NCBI GenBank assembly: GCA_033439255.1
Contig: CM065892.1
Location: 372,001 to 436,000 of the forward strand
DNA length: 64,000 bases
Reading direction: 5' to 3'
Origin: Hericium rajendrae
Lineage: Eukaryota > Basidiomycota > Agaricomycetes > Russulales > Hericiaceae
Part shown: piece after piece, positions 4,359 to 60,694 of the stretch
Layout of the letters: each line of letters starts with the position of its first letter
How positions within the stretch are numbered: the first letter of the stretch is position 1
The notes under the pieces: model-generated
What the model was told of the DNA's origin: nothing
The model's input: the letters and a program-made list of their open reading frames with translations, nothing else
Database searches by the model: none
Position numbers and translations under genes: made by a program

Positions 4359-7148
4359 TGTCCTGTACGATGGTGATTAGAGTGCTCAGTCTGTGAATAC
4401 GCATGTTCATCAACATCAGATCCGGAAAAGACATCGTATATACAACGCACCTTGACTCCTACGATTGCGCTTTGAGGGAGAAGTCAAAGATTATCCGTAT
4501 TTAAGCACAAGAAGAAAACTGCCACAAGCCTTCTCTGAACAAGGTTGCCTTATGATGGTCATGATCGTCGAACAAGGGGCCAATGTTCGGAACTGTTGAA
4601 GGCGAAGGTGAAGCTCGTTTTGGCACAAGGTCACGTAGGGTCACGTCGTCCGTCGCGTCCGTCAGAAGTTCACACGGCGTTGCACACCGACTTCCAGGCC
4701 GCCGCTGCAAGCCCTCTGAAGACTTTGGCCCGCAATTGTTCACGGTTCGGTACGACGCCAATTTGGTCCAGGAGGTAGGTCGTCGATTATTTTTAGACTT
4801 AGCAGCCTGAAGAACGTTAGTCAAACACGAACTTGCACTGTCTTGCTTTCAGGTTAACTGGAAACCTCCATGACCGTGTCTGTTGTTTCGGTTCTCCCTC
4901 ATTTGACGATTGAACGATGGACCACCATATCCCACTTCAAATCTCATAGAGATTTCAAAAGTGGTCTTATCCATCTTTTCCGAATCAATAACATTTAGTC
5001 CTCGCTTGTCCGCGCGCATCTGGTGATACCATAGAATCCAACTTCACGTCATCCTTGGATGACTTTCCGCGGCCTTATTTTTATTCTATGATATGTTTCG
5101 CAGCTCATTTAGATTCAGAGTCCGCTGATTTACGCGACCTGATTGGATGAACAGGTCATTTTGGACGTTAGCGAGGCATTTGAAATGGGGTCTGGAATAT
5201 CATACCATAGATTTAAGGCCGCGGAAAGTCATCCCTTGGTAGTATATCGGATAGTACATCCGCCTGTCATGCATCCTCAAGACCTGGCTCCTACGCGGAA
5301 AAGCGGAGTTTGACTCTCCGCCAGGGAGGTACGAGACTGTTTAGACGTTATTTTTTTGAATTGATGCTATCTGTTGTTCTGAAGGTATTTTTGTGGGCAA
5401 CCTAACACAGGCCAGCCGGAAAAGACGGACTGTACTAGTCCACTTGGATACTGATGTGCGTGAAGTCTCGAACTAATCTCATTTACTTACTGTATCCTGT
5501 ATCAGTCCGATCGAATGTAATGCACAAGAATGCGTAACAAGTATATCCTGACAAAAATGCCCAGCAAGAGGCATTGCGTGAGGTGTTTCGTTACCCTCTG
5601 GAGTTCTTATGCGTGTTGCATTTGAGTCAAGTCATATCTTATGCTCCACGCTAGGATGCAGGACGCAACAGTGCATGTCTCGCACCGTCTTCATGCTTCG
5701 CTATCCCCCGCACTGTTAACTTCATCGGAAGGCGAGAATGAGAAGCCTGGCGCGAGTCCTGTCCCAGCAGCTGAATCCCCAGCCCTTCGAGACATCCCTT
5801 CTTCCTTGCACCTATGGCTTTGGTCTAGTCCCGAGCGTCAAAATGTCACGAGAGAATAGACGACAAAGGATCGAGCACCGTATACCCCCCGGCCGAAAAA
5901 TTTGCATATCTTGCCGCATATATCATCAAGGCGTTCCAACAAGTGCTTGATCACGGTTTTCACATTCCTTACGCTAACACCAAAGGACAGAGACGCCGAT
6001 CACGACAGTTCGACACTAATTGTGCCCTATGCGCGCACTTAGTATGGCATTGAGGCAAGATGCCACTTCGCGACAATTCGCGTGGTCTCGGGCCTGACAG
6101 CCTGATCTGCCAAGCATATCGTCAATGCATCCTCTTCACTGGTGCAGTCCTCGGTTATCAGTGAAGTTCCCGACGGAAGCCGACTGCGCGGGAGGGAAAA
6201 CGGCGCACACGCCCTTCCAGTCATCTGACGTCGTGCAGCGGACGTCCGGAGATACGTGAGTACTGCTAATATAATTCTTCTCTGACTCGACACCGATGGA
6301 TGACGCCCAATCCATCGACCTCGCTTTCATTGCCTTTTTCGATGAGACATGGTCTCTTTGCTGCTAGTTTAGGATCCTAAGTTTTTATCCCGTCAGTGCT
6401 AATCACAATTTTTGGACAGTCTCTTCCGGATGACTATGCGAGTCGCTCGCCCTTTCTGGGTAGTTGCGTTAGCGATGACTCATGGGGCGTTACTTAGGAT
6501 ACGATGGAGACTTTCTGTATCCCGCGGGCCCGCACCATGCCGTCTGCGTTGGTGTTATCTGGGCACGTTACATCAAACACTACCGCGTATTGGTCATTCA
6601 GGTGCAGTCTTACTGAAGGCTTCGAGTCCTCGGACATCCCAGAAGAATTCGCCGTTAAATCCAGTCCGCTGATTCGATAGCGAAGGTCATATTAGACGCC
6701 GGCCTTTCTCTATGACAGAAGCGTCGGCTCTGAACAGGTTGTTAGCCAGGTGTTCCATAATTCTCCGGGATCGGCACCGTAAGCCAAGTCCTTGATGTGG
6801 TCAAGTATGAACATTCATAGCCGCCCGATATTCATTGCCGCTGAAGCATGCTTCCAAAATTGGGCATTTTTGAAACGTACGTCTGTCTGCTCCTGCGCTT
6901 GCGCGCTTCTATCAACTAATAAGAGCCTGCCACACACCAGTTTCTTTCTTTTTCGAGCAAGCAAATCATATCAATCCCCCCCTGGATGCCCGATAAGGGC
7001 CCAGCAGTCGCGCCAACACCGCACGAACCCTACATTCAATTGGTCGTGTCGTAAGTGAAGTGAGACTTCAAGTACTCACTTTGGCAGCCGTGAAAAATCA
7101 AGAACAAAATGTCGGCAAAGATAAATTTGTTCTATATGCCAGGCCAGC
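4359..7148. other. gene-poor spacer, about 2.8 kb
   Basis: Short open stretches occur on both strands, but none has a plausible start, splice signals or recognisable protein content. The only definable structure is the 178-bp inverted-repeat element at 5057-5234. It may hold decayed sequence, but I cannot identify a parent. Confidence 0.5.
5057..5234 (+). mobile_element. MITE family A, copy 1 (178 bp, 3-bp target duplication CTT)
   Basis: The element begins GGATGACTTTCCGCGGCCTT and ends in the reverse complement of that sequence, giving terminal inverted repeats of about 21 bp. CTT lies immediately outside each end (5054-5056 and 5235-5237) and is the target duplication. It has no coding capacity, so it is non-autonomous. 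A second copy of identical length, about 94% identical by eye and in the opposite orientation, lies at 60415-60592. A 3-bp duplication fits PIF/Harbinger- or CACTA-like transposases, but the superfamily cannot be settled from the ends alone. Confidence 0.9.
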
Positions 7149-44545: not shown

Positions 44546-46670
44546 ATGGCCGGTGAGTAAATTGTGCTATCTTCGTCTGCTAATTGACAGTTCAATTCAA
44601 TCCAGTCGCCAATCAGGAGTACGCGTCCATCTGCCCACTTCACGTTCACGTCTGCTAACTGTTGAACTGGCGGACGTCTTAGTGCTCTCGCTGAGTTGAA
44701 GGCGCTATCCAACATCATTCAAGAAAATATCGACCGCCTCGAAGCCATCTGTAAAGCCAATGGTCTAGATTACCCGTCGTCCAAGGCACCCTACAGTCCT
44801 CAAAGCGAGGCTGCGCGCAATCTGCCTGATGCAATGGAGGCCGGTTCACTAATCGTGTCGGCGGCTACGCAGCTCGTAGCTGCGGTGAACCCCCCACCCA
44901 TGACCGCGTTTTCTCTGGTCGGGTCGGTAAGAGCATCATGGTCACGATCAGTCCATGGCTGCGATAGTGAAGACTATCTTTTTCCAGTTCCACATTCCGG
45001 CTGCTTTCCGAGTTGTATTGGAGACACACACAGCGGAAATTCTCCACGATGCCGGACCAAAGGTACGCACCTTGCCTCACGGTCATGCTATTTTCTCCTC
45101 ATGCCGCTCCTCAGGGAAAGCATGTCAATGAGATTGCAAAGCCAACAAATAAGGATCCGGCGAAGCTTGGTACGTGTTCGCAAGGCCATTGGTAAACACT
45201 GACAATGACACACGCTCCGCAGCCCGCGTCCTGCGCTTCCTGGCAACACACCATGTATTTGTCGAAGTGTCGCCCGATCACTTTGCCCACAATAGACTGT
45301 CCTCCTTGTTGGACACCCACAAATCGGTGGACAGCATCCTCGCCAAGTATGCTGCGTGATTCTCTATGTCCAAAGCTTCATTAAATGATAGCATCGCAGC
45401 CCAGACAAGAAACACGAAGGGACCCCCGGCATGACGGCGTTTATTGGACATCTGTGCGTCGCCCTTTCGTGTCGTCGGATTGCTCTGATATTACCTTAGC
45501 ACCGATGAATCATTTAAGTCGGCATCTTACATGCCGGACGTATTCCTAGACCCTAAGACGGCTTTCAGCGTGGATGCGAGCTCGACAGGCTTCAATAGGG
45601 CATATAACACCGATAAGAATGCGTTTGACTGGTTTGAGACACCGGGCAACGAATGGAGGCTAGCGAGATTCGGCATAGCGATGGACGGCACGAAGTCGAT
45701 GTCGCCTCCGGGTGCGATCCTAGAAGGTAGACCCGCCGTCAACATAAGTGTCTTCTCCATTTTCATCACGCCATTCACAGGTTTCGACTGGAAGGGCATG
45801 AAAGAGGGCTCTCTGGTTGTAGACGTTGGAGGAGGAGTCGGGTCCCAATCCTTGACTCTCGCACAATATCATCCACACCTGCGATTTATCATCGAGGATC
45901 GCATAGAAGTGATCCCCGATGCCAAAAAGGCAAGCCAGACATTAGGCTGTTCGAGCAGAAACTGACATCTCGTACAGTTCTGGAACAACAACGCACCTGA
46001 GCATGTTCAATCGGGCAAAGTCAAATTCCAGGGTAAGCACACTTGTCTCTCAATGTACATCCCAGTTTAATCTTGACCCTGGTGCGACAGCGTATAATTT
46101 CATGGAGGATGCACAGCCAGTCAAGAATGCGGACGTCTTTCTCTTGCGCGCCATCCTTCACGACTGGGCAGACCCATACTGTCTGACAATCTTGCGTCAT
46201 CTGCGTGCAGCGGCAACACCCGCTACGCGCTTAATCGTGGTGGACAACCTTATTCCTTACGCCTGTGAGGAAAGAGCAATAGAAGATATCCCCGGAGCGG
46301 AACGACGTCTTCCGCCCGCGCCTCTCCTCGCCAACCGGGGACAGGCGAATGCTATCCCATACATCACGGACATGCAGGTACGCAATAACAACAGTGCATA
46401 TCCGCTGCCTCTTGTCTGACTACTTGTGTACAGATGATGACTGTTCTCAACGGGCAAGAGCGTACGATCACACATGTCCGGAACCTCCTGGAGCAGACAG
46501 GGTGGAAGTTGGTGCAGGTTCACCACGGATCGCCGTTTGCCATGACGAACCAGAAGGCCATCGCTGTTCCAGTCTGAACGCGGCACGTAATATAGGAGAA
46601 TTCTATGAACGGTAGCTATCGACAACTCGAGAACGCCATATGACAAACAGAGACTACGATTACAAACGAG
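43985..46670 (+). repeat. segmental duplication, copy 1 (methyltransferase plus flanks)
   Basis: The block running from GGACATCGTCTATTGATGAC through the promoter, the whole methyltransferase gene and about 90 bp beyond its stop is duplicated at about 50630-53010. The flanks and introns align as well as the exons. Copy 1 has extra sequence at about 44150-44400. Confidence 0.85.
44546..46577 (+). CDS. SAM-dependent O-methyltransferase, copy 1
   Basis: Twelve exons (44546-44552, 44606-44618, 44683-44926, 44988-45062, 45115-45169, 45223-45346, 45400-45453, 45500-45726, 45781-45929, 45978-46032, 46091-46377, 46434-46577) give 477 residues. The first exon is 7 nt and the second a 13-nt microexon. 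An N-terminal winged-helix dimerisation domain (ARVLRFLATHHVFVEVSPDHFAHN) precedes the Rossmann methyltransferase domain with motif I VVDVGGGVGSQSL, the acidic motif II region and the catalytic base in AILHDWADPYC. This plant-caffeate-type family methylates phenolic hydroxyls. The intron starting 45930 has a GC donor (AAAAAG|GCAAGC), as does the second copy. No backbone enzyme of a secondary-metabolite cluster is near, so the substrate is unknown. Confidence 0.92.
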
Positions 46671-49365: not shown

Positions 49366-49804
49366 AATGCACGGCTAAGAACTGTGCTCTTCTTTTCTAT
49401 CGGCCTGTGGTTGACTTGAAGACGGAGGACAGCAGTTGGGGAACATACGCGGGGCCGCGTGTCCGGCCTCGACATACATACAACAGCTACTCGTACGCAT
49501 CACCTGTCCCGCATTCTGTCATCCAGTGAGTAGCTTCAATAGATGGATGTAATATGTAGCTCTAAGGATTCAATGGTGCAAAGATGTACAGAACATAGTA
49601 CCCATGTATTTTTTGAGTTATCTTAATAAGAACATAGATATGCTGTGCCCGAATTTTTCAAAAGCCTTTAGCACCCATGAGAACTACCTAATAGCATAAG
49701 AAAAGCCGTTTTGTAACAGTTGTGTCTTCGTCAAGACAAGCAAGGTTTCTGCCGACGCAGTCGGCGCTTCCCTAGTCATCTCTTCCCAGCCATATTCGAG
49801 CCGC
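49366..49804. other. spacer between GT8 pseudogene and long-TIR element
   Basis: The first 150 bases may be degenerate 3' coding sequence of the pseudogene. No other gene or repeat is seen. Confidence 0.4.
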
Positions 49805-49984
49805 TTCAGTACGACGGTTGGAACAGTCCAGAGAAATACTCACGTTAACGATCTACCCGTACAGAGTATTTGCACAGCCACAACCAGCGCTAACGCGCTG
49901 GTGTCACCGTAGTACGGATACAACGGTCTCATGCCGAGACCGATGAATCCGTATCGCCGCAAGCCGAATTAATCGAGTAAAATA

Positions 49985-50060
49985 ATGGCTTGGGCAAGGA
50001 TTGAACCCACAACGTCGCAGGATAGTAAATATGCTAGAGCCGCTGCACCAAGAGGGCTAT
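49985..50060 (-). ncRNA. degenerate tRNA-like module (pol III A and B boxes)
   Basis: On the minus strand TGGTGCAGCGGCTC (A box, 50037-50050) is followed 30 bases later by GGTTCAATCC (B box, 49998-50007), with T-rich sequence after it. A D stem GTGC/GCAT closes, and a T stem closes only with several G-T pairs. The acceptor stem does not close fully. It is a tRNA pseudogene or SINE head, not a functional tRNA. Confidence 0.5.
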
Positions 50061-50220
50061 ATATATAACTTTACCGATTTATACCAATCTAGTTATTTTC
50101 AGAACAACGTCACGCTTCACGATGATGGGATAACACTTCGACTTGGAGAATTTTGGAGATGCCAAGGTCAGTGTAAAGACCGATATATCAGTCCCATTTC
50201 CGAGCAAACATATACCTGCC

Positions 50221-50290
50221 AACTCAACCTAAACCCAACCCCAACCCAACTGCCAACCCCAACCCCAACCCAGCCCATCCCAACCTCAAC
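50221..50290. repeat. CCCAAC-rich simple repeat
   Basis: Degenerate tandem (A)ACCCCAACCC units cover about 70 bp inside the long-TIR element. They resemble but do not equal the usual CCCTAA telomere unit. Confidence 0.75.
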
Positions 50291-50423
50291 CAGTGCACGC
50301 AAATGAGAGTATCCAGTGACCGATAGATCTGTCTCACGGCTGATACTGATAGATCTGTACATTTGAATATTAGGGCACGCGACACTAGACAGATAATATA
50401 ATATGTGGTTGTTATCTAAAGCA

Positions 50424-50510
50424 ATCTGCCTTAGTGGTTAAGTTGTCTACATTATGCTTATGTTTTCTTATCGTGAGGCGTGGTTCGAGTCCCGCTCCAG
50501 CCTCTTTTTT
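50424..50510 (+). ncRNA. degenerate tRNA-like module (pol III A and B boxes, T6 terminator)
   Basis: TTAGTGGTTAAG (50431-50442) and GGTTCGAGTCC (50482-50492) match the A and B boxes of Leu/Ser-type tRNAs, and a run of six T follows at 50505-50510. The spacing is right for a pol III unit, but the acceptor stem does not close, so it is a tRNA-derived relic. Confidence 0.55.
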
Positions 50511-50629
50511 GGCGGTAAAGGCTATGATTGTGGCTGTGCAAATACTCTGTACGGGTAGATCGTTAACGTGAGTATTACTCTAGACCGTTACAACCGTCCT
50601 ACTGAACACCTTCCATATTCTCATTATTC

Positions 50630-53010
50630 AGATGGACATCGTCTATCGATGACAGAGCGGTCGTGTGGGATCGTTTGACCGTTCAGAGTAAAAGAAGCGC
50701 AAGAAGTACGTCCTCATGTAGAGTATCATGGAACAATGACCTGTCACCAGAGCTCGAACTGTTTCATTAAAATCAGCGAACGTGACATGGTCGAGCTTCT
50801 TCCGCGAAGTCTCGAGGTATTTAAAGCGGTGGTTGATTCTAGTCCCCCATCGCACTCTGCCGTTTCTCTCGCATTGAACTAGCTATGGCCAGTGAGTATT
50901 TTGTGCTATTTCTGTCTGTCAATTTCTCAGCTCAACTTAACACAGCTGCCAATCACGAGTATGTGCTCATATGCACGCTGGTTCACGTTCACAGCTGCTA
51001 ACTGCTGAAATAATGGACATAGTGCCCTTGCTGAACTGAAGGCGCTCTCCAATATCATCCGAGAAAATATCGACCGCCTCGAAGCCACCTGCAAAGCCAA
51101 TGGTTTGGAGTACCCGTCATCCAAGGTACCCTTCAGTCCCCAAAGCGAGGCTGTGCGCAACCTGCCCGATGCAATGGAGGCGGGCTCCTTAATCGTGTCG
51201 GCTGCTACGCAGCTTGTAGCTGCAGTCAATCCACCGCCCGTGACCGTGATTTCTCTGGTCGGGTCGGTAAGAGCATCATGGTCATGATCAGTCCCTGGCT
51301 ACGATAATGAAGCTATCTGTGTTCAGTTCCACATTCCGGCTGCACTTCGAGTTGTATTGGAGACGCACACGGCGGAAATTCTCCGCGATGCCGGACCAGA
51401 GGTACGCACATCCTCTCGTGGTTGTGCTATTCTTCTTATGCCGCCACTCAGGGAAAGCATGTCAATAAGATCGCAAAGCCAACGAATAAGGATCCGGCGA
51501 AGCTTGGTATGTCTTCGCAAGGCCATCAGTGAACACTGATATTGATACACGTTTCGCAGCCCGCATCCTGCGTTTCTTGGCAACCCATCATGTATTTGTC
51601 GAAGTGTCGCCTGATCACTTCGCCCACAATAGACTGTCCTCCTTGTTGGACACACACAAATCGGTGGACAGCATCCTCGCCAAGTATGCTCCTCCAGCCT
51701 CCATATCTAATTCTCCACTCAACGACAGCATTGCAGCCCAGACAAGAAACACGAAGGGACTCCCGGAATGACGGCAGTGATTGGACACTTGTGCGTCGCC
51801 CTTTCGTGTCATCGAATTGCTCTAATATCACTCCAGCACCGATGAAGCGTTCAAGGCAGCATCTTATTTGCCGGACGTACTCCTAGACCCTAAGACGGCT
51901 TTCAACGTGGACGCAAGCTCGACAGGCTTCAATAGGGCATATAACACCGATAAGAATGTGTTTGACTGGTTTGAGACACCGGGCAACGAATGGAGGCTAG
52001 CGAGATTCGGCATAGCGATGGACGGCGCGAAGTCGATGTCGCCTCCGGGTGCGATCCTAGAAGGTAGACTCGCCGTCAACATAAGTGTCTTCTCCATTTT
52101 CATCACGCCATTAACAGGTTTCGATTGGAAGGGCATGAAAGAGAGCTCTCTGGTTGTGGACGTTGGAGGAGGAGTCGGGTCCCAATCCTTGACGCTCGCG
52201 CAAAATCACCCACATCTGCGGTTCATTGTCGAGGACCGCACAGAAGTGATCCCTGATGCCAAGAAGGCAAGCTCAATACTGAGCAGTGAGGACACAAACT
52301 GATACTCGTGTAGTTCTGGAACAGCAACCTACCTGAGCACGTCCAATCCGGCAAAGTCCAATTCCAGGGTAAGCATACGCGTCTGTCAATGTAAACACAT
52401 CCTAGTTTAATCTCGACATTGGCGATGACAGCGTATAACTTCCTGGAGGATGAGCAGCCGATCAAGAATGCGGACATCTTCCTTTTACGTGCCATCCTTC
52501 ATGACTGGGCCGACCCATACTGTCTGACAATTCTGCGTCACCTGCGTGCAGCGGCAGCACCCACCACGCGCTTGATTGTCGTTGACAACCTCATTCCTTA
52601 CGCCTGTGAGGAGAAATCAACGGAAGATGTCCCCGGAGCAGAGCGACGTCTTCCGCCCGCGCCTCTACTCGCAAACCGCGGACAGGCAAATGCCACCCCG
52701 TATATCACAGATATGCAGGTATGCGGCAGCAGCAGTGCATACTGAGTCCCCTCTCTCATCTTACTTTATCGTGCGCAGATGATGGCTCTTCTCAATGGGC
52801 AAGAGCGTACGATTACACATGTCCGGAACCTCCTGGAGCAGACAGGGTGGAAGTTGATGCAGGTCTACAACGGATCGCCATTTTCCATGATGAACCAGAA
52901 GGCCATCGCTGTTCCAGTCTGAGCGCAGCACGTAAAATAGGAGAATTCTATGAATAGCACCTGTCGACAACTCGAATGTGATATAACCAAACAGAGACTA
53001 CGACTACAAA
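50630..53010 (+). repeat. segmental duplication, copy 2 (methyltransferase plus flanks)
   Basis: It matches 43985-46670 from GGACATCGTCTATCGATGAC through the promoter, gene and immediate 3' flank (GGAGAATTCTATGAA...). Coding identity by eye is about 90%, with introns more diverged except intron 8. Confidence 0.85.
50885..52922 (+). CDS. SAM-dependent O-methyltransferase, copy 2
   Basis: The exon pattern is the same as copy 1, starting with a 7-nt exon (50885-50891) and a 13-nt microexon (50946-50958), and ending at TGA 52922. The reading frame is intact throughout, giving about 477 residues. The winged-helix domain, VVDVGGGVGSQSL, AILHDWADPYC and the C-terminal FSMMNQKAIAVPV-type end are present. 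The intron after DAKK again starts with GC. Differences from copy 1 are mostly conservative (for example EYPSS/DYPSS, AVIGH/AFIGH), so both may be functional with similar or slightly different substrates. The long-TIR element sits about 280 bp upstream and could have altered its promoter relative to copy 1. Confidence 0.92.
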
Positions 53011-60392: not shown

Positions 60393-60414
60393 GGGTATAA
60401 CACCGTGATGTAAT

Positions 60415-60592
60415 GGATGACTTTCCGCGGCCTTAAATCTATGGTATGATATGCCAAAGGCCATTTCAAATGCCTCGCTAACGTCCAAAATGACCTCCTC
60501 ATCCAATCAGGTCGCAAAAATCAGCGGACTCTGAATCTAAATGAGCTTCAAAACATATCATAGAATAAAAATAAGGCCGCGGAAAGTCATCC
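60415..60592 (-). mobile_element. MITE family A, copy 2 (178 bp, 3-bp target duplication AAT)
   Basis: Same length and ends (GGATGACTTTCCGCGGCCTT and complement) as the copy at 5057, but inverted relative to it. AAT flanks both sides (60412-60414 and 60593-60595). The two copies differ at about ten scattered positions. Confidence 0.92.
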
Positions 60593-60694
60593 AATGTCTG
60601 TAAACGTGTAAATGTGTAAACCAGCGCCGCCTTCTGGAACACCCCATCGCTGATAAACGTGTCGAGATTGGCCCATCAGTCCGGCATGCACGAG

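Follow-up and report, generated by a model that had tools for sequence, protein, structure and literature searches.

A low-copy, non-autonomous DNA transposon carrying two predicted pol III-type promoters in Hericium rajendrae

The analysis of a 64,000-nt stretch of the Hericium rajendrae genome (C15:372001-436000; hereafter, the window) identified an 816-bp element (window 49798-50613) that, judged from its sequence, is a non-autonomous DNA transposon of low copy number and contains two promoters of the pol III type. The element very probably belongs to a small, MITE-like cut-and-paste family and has a mosaic make-up, with two acquired, outward-pointing pol III-type units and a CCAAC block. 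It is unusual for a cut-and-paste element to carry two complete-looking tRNA-type promoters, and their retention across diverged copies makes it testable whether a DNA transposon can exploit TFIIIC or pol III. In addition, a small and clean family with unlike terminal 7-mers and 7-bp target duplications is good bait for its transposase.

Four copies with fixed ends and 7-bp target duplications

Searching the 46.8-Mb genome (19 contigs) revealed four copies of the element: that in the window, whose 816-bp span is the unit common to all four, and those at C13:395849-396636 (788 bp), C14:270233-270969 (737 bp) and C18:359136-360639 (1504 bp, including a 699-bp nested insert). The left terminal 7 bp, GAGCCGC (49798-49804), were the same in every copy and in a solo left end on C8. 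The right terminal 7 bp, YACCTTC (50607-50613; GAAGGTR on the other strand), were likewise found in the four copies and in a solo right end on C10. Read in this way, GAGCCGC and GAAGGTR do not form an inverted repeat. Inside them lie two inverted-repeat arms of 82 bp (49805-49886, plus strand; 50525-50606, minus strand), 93% complementary over these 82 nt, with the element reaching 7 bp beyond the arms on either side. The left arm was 99% identical to its counterparts in the three other copies; within one copy, 5-8 bases separated the left from the right arm, and some of these differences were common to several copies. An earlier reading made from the letters alone (the sequence-only reading) had described imperfect inverted ends of about 75 bp; the imperfect arms are real, but both they and the element are slightly larger than was proposed.

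The same reading had anticipated a TA duplication at the insertion sites. Instead, all four copies were flanked by a perfect 7-bp duplication, the target sequence differing each time: CATATTC in the window (49791-49797, with the same letters at 50614-50620), and CCATTCC, CACGGAA and GTCACGG for the others. Perfect 7-bp duplications together with fixed ends are the footprint of cut-and-paste insertion, not of retroposition. The DNA-transposon shell with tRNA-like modules that the sequence-only reading had offered as one possibility was thus borne out by four copies with common ends and duplications.

No open reading frame of 120 aa starting with ATG, GTG or TTG overlapped the window copy, in which the longest stop-free stretch was 106 aa. 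Four frames between stop codons that overlap the C13, C14 and C18 copies, which measure up to 225 aa and extend partly beyond the element, matched no family in Pfam. The mean pairwise difference among the copies was 1.7% for the left end plus arm, 3.4% for the right and 6.2% for the interior; ends less diverged than the interior fit ends that are held by transposase recognition. Since all 28 duplicated bases still match, the interior differences, small as the numbers are, probably for the most part predate these insertions and arose in lineages with constant ends.

Pfam matches placed the window copy beside an O-methyltransferase-like gene pair (one of the two matches being under the family cut-off), the C13 copy beside the end of a SUV3-type helicase, and the C14 copy between pieces of AMP-binding enzymes (again with one of two under the cut-off). 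The O-methyltransferase-like gene is tandemly duplicated (window 44680-46630 and 51020-52975; pieces 85-90% identical), and the upstream homology of its second copy begins exactly at the target duplication of the element. This neighbouring duplicate provided no clean empty site: the homology begins at the right duplicated 7-mer and is lost on the left. The insert nested in the C18 copy (C18:359617-360315; L011:2475-3173) is 699 bp long, is flanked by a 6-bp duplication (CGGTGT) and has the ends TATAGCG..CTCATA. This repeat gave 22 match rows genome-wide, itself counted; some of its copies may be recent, since two others were 98% identical over the full length.

Two divergent pol III-type units

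Module 1 (49979-50083, minus strand) contains an A box at 50050-50040 and a B box at 50008-49998, with a TATAAA at position -26 relative to its predicted 5' end (50057) and a T4 run (49982-49979) downstream. Module 2 (50395-50510, plus strand) contains an A box within 50427-50445 and a B box at 50481-50491, with AATATAAT at position -26 relative to its predicted 5' end (~50421) and a T6 run (50505-50510) downstream; across the copies the T runs were T4 for module 1 and T5-T6 for module 2. The modules do not face each other, as had been thought, but diverge: module 1 points leftwards (minus strand) and module 2 rightwards (plus strand). Each predicted RNA, of ~80-90 nt, would therefore end before the arm.

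The boxes were scored with a weight matrix derived from the A- and B-box sequences found in the tRNA genes of this genome. Rfam yielded 61 tRNA matches, 58 of them over the cut-off; 47 of these 58 were taken, 46 being distinct, and the matrix was built on 32 of the 46. The other 14 were missed by the B-box pattern and left out, so true tRNAs of that type are under-scored. With both strands of the 64-kb window scored, module 1 (26.4) and module 2 (26.3) were the two highest-ranking A+B pairs, and the third was a true tRNA gene (17909-17835; score 21.3), which other searches detected as well. The 46 native tRNAs had a median score of 28.6 and a minimum of 15.7, values that are partly circular since most of these genes had served to build the matrix. 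In 60 dinucleotide-shuffled versions of the window, the best pair scored 25.5 and none reached 26. A wider scan covered both strands of 16 stretches chosen for other reasons, 188,593 bases in total with the four copies included. It gave nine pairs scoring at least 20, namely seven modules (22.0-28.4), the true tRNA and a 20.8 match at 1637-1564; the seven pairs scoring at least 22 were all within copies of the element.

Module 2 was scored in all four copies and module 1 in three, the window copy and those on C13 and C18; in the C14 copy, the A-box half of module 1 is deleted. The sequence-only reading had named two ways in which its proposal might fail, copies lacking the modules and boxes that were chance matches. 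The former was encountered at a single site: A+B pairs were present in seven of the eight places where a module could be expected, with ~6% divergence between the interiors of the copies. The latter was countered by the shuffles and by the pairs in the other copies.

The sequences upstream of the modules were compared with those of 20 of the 58 native tRNA genes. In this sample the AT content was highest, at 87%, from -30 to -21, and a TATA was present between -40 and -11 in 10 of the 20; the upstream AT/TATA of both modules is positioned like that of these genes. The AATATAAT stretch upstream of module 2 was identical in the four copies, while the stretch upstream of module 1 in the C13 and C18 copies was AT-rich and variable. 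By these sequence features, the two modules are well-supported pol III-type promoters.

Neither module showed a tRNA fold (z -0.13 and -1.48), and neither was reported by the Rfam tRNA model at E values up to 10. Module 2 could be aligned with a native tRNA of the serine type (as we read it from the anticodon), 2 of 300 shuffles aligning as well; module 1 aligned weakly to native tRNAs (8 of 300). A genome search at E values up to 10 found no relatives of the modules outside the four copies among the best candidates scored, a result that lends no support to the captured SINE envisaged by the sequence-only reading. The modules may have originated as tRNA or tRNA-like genes that the element picked up and has carried ever since.

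Variable columns made up 5 of 44 in the boxes and 63 of 557 in the rest of the interior. The B boxes of both modules were invariant (0 of 22 columns), while the A boxes vary; at a background of 11%, 22 invariant columns are not significant (about 0.07 by our estimate). Since the boxes vary as much as the remaining interior, use of the promoters by the element is not supported, and they are most likely acquired passengers that are still intact.

A mosaic interior

Between the modules lies a CCAAC tract which, with its borders, forms a block of ~95 bp (50201-50295), G-rich on the minus strand. The tract, already noted in the sequence-only reading, is among the least variable parts of the element (3 of 98 columns). 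Of the 45 match rows obtained in the search with the element, 31 lay outside the four copies, all of them on the CCAAC stretch. Seven of these outside places were aligned; six had one common flanking context and the seventh (L136) had another. None of the seven stretches (one of 3.1 kb and six of ~300 bp) contained a pol III pair. The block has thus dispersed separately, and the element is a mosaic in which transposon ends, the two pol III-type units and this dispersed block have come together. Across the window and the outside places (L008 and L135-L140), the block had conserved borders in at least three sequence contexts. The G-rich strand, inspected by eye, might form quadruplexes.

A nested hairpin was likewise confirmed: the region next to the left arm (49887-49968) folds with a z of -4.03, none of 200 shuffles being as stable. 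Two copies of ACYGATAGATCTGT are present on the plus strand at 50319-50358. A palindromic motif resembling ACYGATAGATCTGT, though a weak match, was seen 149-182 bp inwards of the right end on C10.

Search for a transposase partner

The genome was searched with patterns of the two ends, allowing up to three mismatches and using the reversed patterns as a control. Beyond the four elements, the clear matches were one left end (C8:266604) and one right end (C10:1596554). The remaining matches, at 2, 19 and 7, did not exceed those of the reversed control (2, 23 and 20); one of those seven, on C4, has two mismatches. The C8 and C10 solo ends are each single copy in the genome and have 20 bp of inverted end in common before they diverge. 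The 7-mer outside the C10 end did not appear again within the ~30 kb read in the inward direction, and that outside the C8 end occurred twice more, 15.2 and 17.7 kb in, each time without right-end sequence. Shared ends identified no transposase partner, and neither solo end had a recognizable mate in the stretches read.

Moving inwards from the C10 right end, an ORF with a CxC6 domain (PF18721, E 1.7e-21) occurs at 8.8-9.8 kb; this proximity does not show that the two belong to the same element. CxC6 domains are associated with KDZ transposases. The ORF has relatives at other loci in the genome. Around two related CxC6 loci, on C2 and C7, neither TTCAGTA nor TACTGAA was present in the stretches read, and comparison of these two copies for KDZ ends showed common borders without a clear duplication. 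A 25-bp likeness of module 1 to the C2 and C7 copies was attributed to chance, the B-box score there being 3.6. Further in from the C10 right end, a JmjC-type dioxygenase-like ORF was recognized by eye (L047:2842-4014, minus strand); Pfam reported no family for it.

A pair of end-pattern matches on C14 was discarded, as both belong to a large inverted duplication that does not resemble the element; this near-perfect structure (L040; C14:41403-47008) is 99.9% identical between arms of at least 1.25 kb that lie about 3.1 kb apart. Two matches in a scan of viral contigs were judged to be chance, neither having either terminal 7-mer, and a scan of prokaryote genomes for the element gave 0 matches.

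Alternative explanations and comparison with known systems

MITEs are short, non-coding elements with inverted ends and a constant target duplication. The element resembles them in its short length, non-coding body without a transposase gene, inverted ends (the outermost 7 bp excepted) and constant 7-bp duplication. It differs in its unlike terminal 7-mers, in the two pol III-type units inside it, and in its low copy number and uneven size. A transposase encoded elsewhere would mobilize it in trans, while pol III would produce two RNAs of ~80-90 nt that terminate at the T runs, ahead of the arms. Several results weigh against this explanation: no transposase partner was identified, and the solo ends have no recognizable mate in the stretches read; four copies are few for a MITE; module 1 is weak against native tRNAs, and neither module has a tRNA fold or an Rfam tRNA report; box columns vary like other interior columns; and the gene duplicate next door shows no clean empty site. 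The lack of a tRNA fold or Rfam match, and boxes conserved no better than the rest, would also be expected if the A and B boxes were chance matches inside an ordinary MITE. That is very improbable, as the two best pairs of 64 kb fall in one 816-bp element, shuffles give none as good, and upstream AT/TATA and T runs accompany the boxes. Internal pol III promoters are a hallmark of retroposed SINEs, and the element has the A and B boxes and the pol III type 2 layout of tRNA-derived SINEs, at the sequence level. However, two opposed tRNA-derived SINEs moved together by reverse transcription are contradicted by the fixed ends, the 7-bp duplications in place of variable-length ones and termini without an A-rich or other retroposon tail. 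Unlike those of such SINEs, the two opposed units have T runs of their own within a DNA-transposon frame, so that a transcript, meeting a T run ahead of each arm, would not span the element; in addition, the module search found no relative elsewhere among the best candidates scored. A composite SINE is therefore highly improbable.

The pol III units might instead be working parts of the element: in the way that clusters of B boxes act at boundaries of fission yeast, TFIIIC bound at the outward units would keep the chromatin of the element open or shield it from silencing, and so aid access of the transposase. A+B pairs at seven of eight positions despite the interior divergence, and the invariant B boxes, are in its favour. 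So is the fission-yeast boundary IR-L, for which the available part of the report describes a five-B-box stretch as needed for full reporter activity (PMC4502379). In that part, the boundary elements combine B boxes with inverted repeats, as the element does, but they are not described as mobile, whereas the element has A+B pairs with T runs; the endogenous boundary was only mildly weakened without its B boxes (PMC4502379). As the B-box invariance is not significant, the A boxes vary and half of module 1 is lost in C14, we consider this explanation unlikely. The broader proposal that a DNA transposon exploits outward pol III promoters, whether through TFIIIC-bound open or insulated chromatin that favours mobility or through small RNAs serving the element, is likewise unlikely on the present sequences. 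Titles and abstract beginnings, from a literature with few subscription journals, contained no DNA transposon with such pol III units, and the 'B box' in the accessible text of PMC6947457 is a CENP-B box, while that of PMC11075540 contained nothing relevant.

Within the preferred explanation, a non-autonomous cut-and-paste family, membership of the KDZ (Kyakuja-type) or hAT7 transposons is conceivable but doubtful. According to the available text of PMC12730594, Kyakuja and hAT7 elements of basidiomycetes make 7-bp duplications, a length common with that seen here; but Kyakuja termini are CA..TG without inverted repeats, whereas the element has GA..TC and 82-bp arms. The CxC6 ORF near the C10 end speaks for a KDZ relationship, although it is tied to that end by proximity, and the stretches read at the related C2 and C7 loci lacked TTCAGTA and TACTGAA. 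Long inverted arms are also a feature of Foldback/Galileo of Drosophila, whose arms, in the accessible part of PMC3573991, are internally repetitive; those of the element are not reported as repeats. Elsewhere in the window, positions 5055-5237 and 60412-60594 form a further inverted repeat pair of 183 nt, 94% complementary and 55 kb apart.
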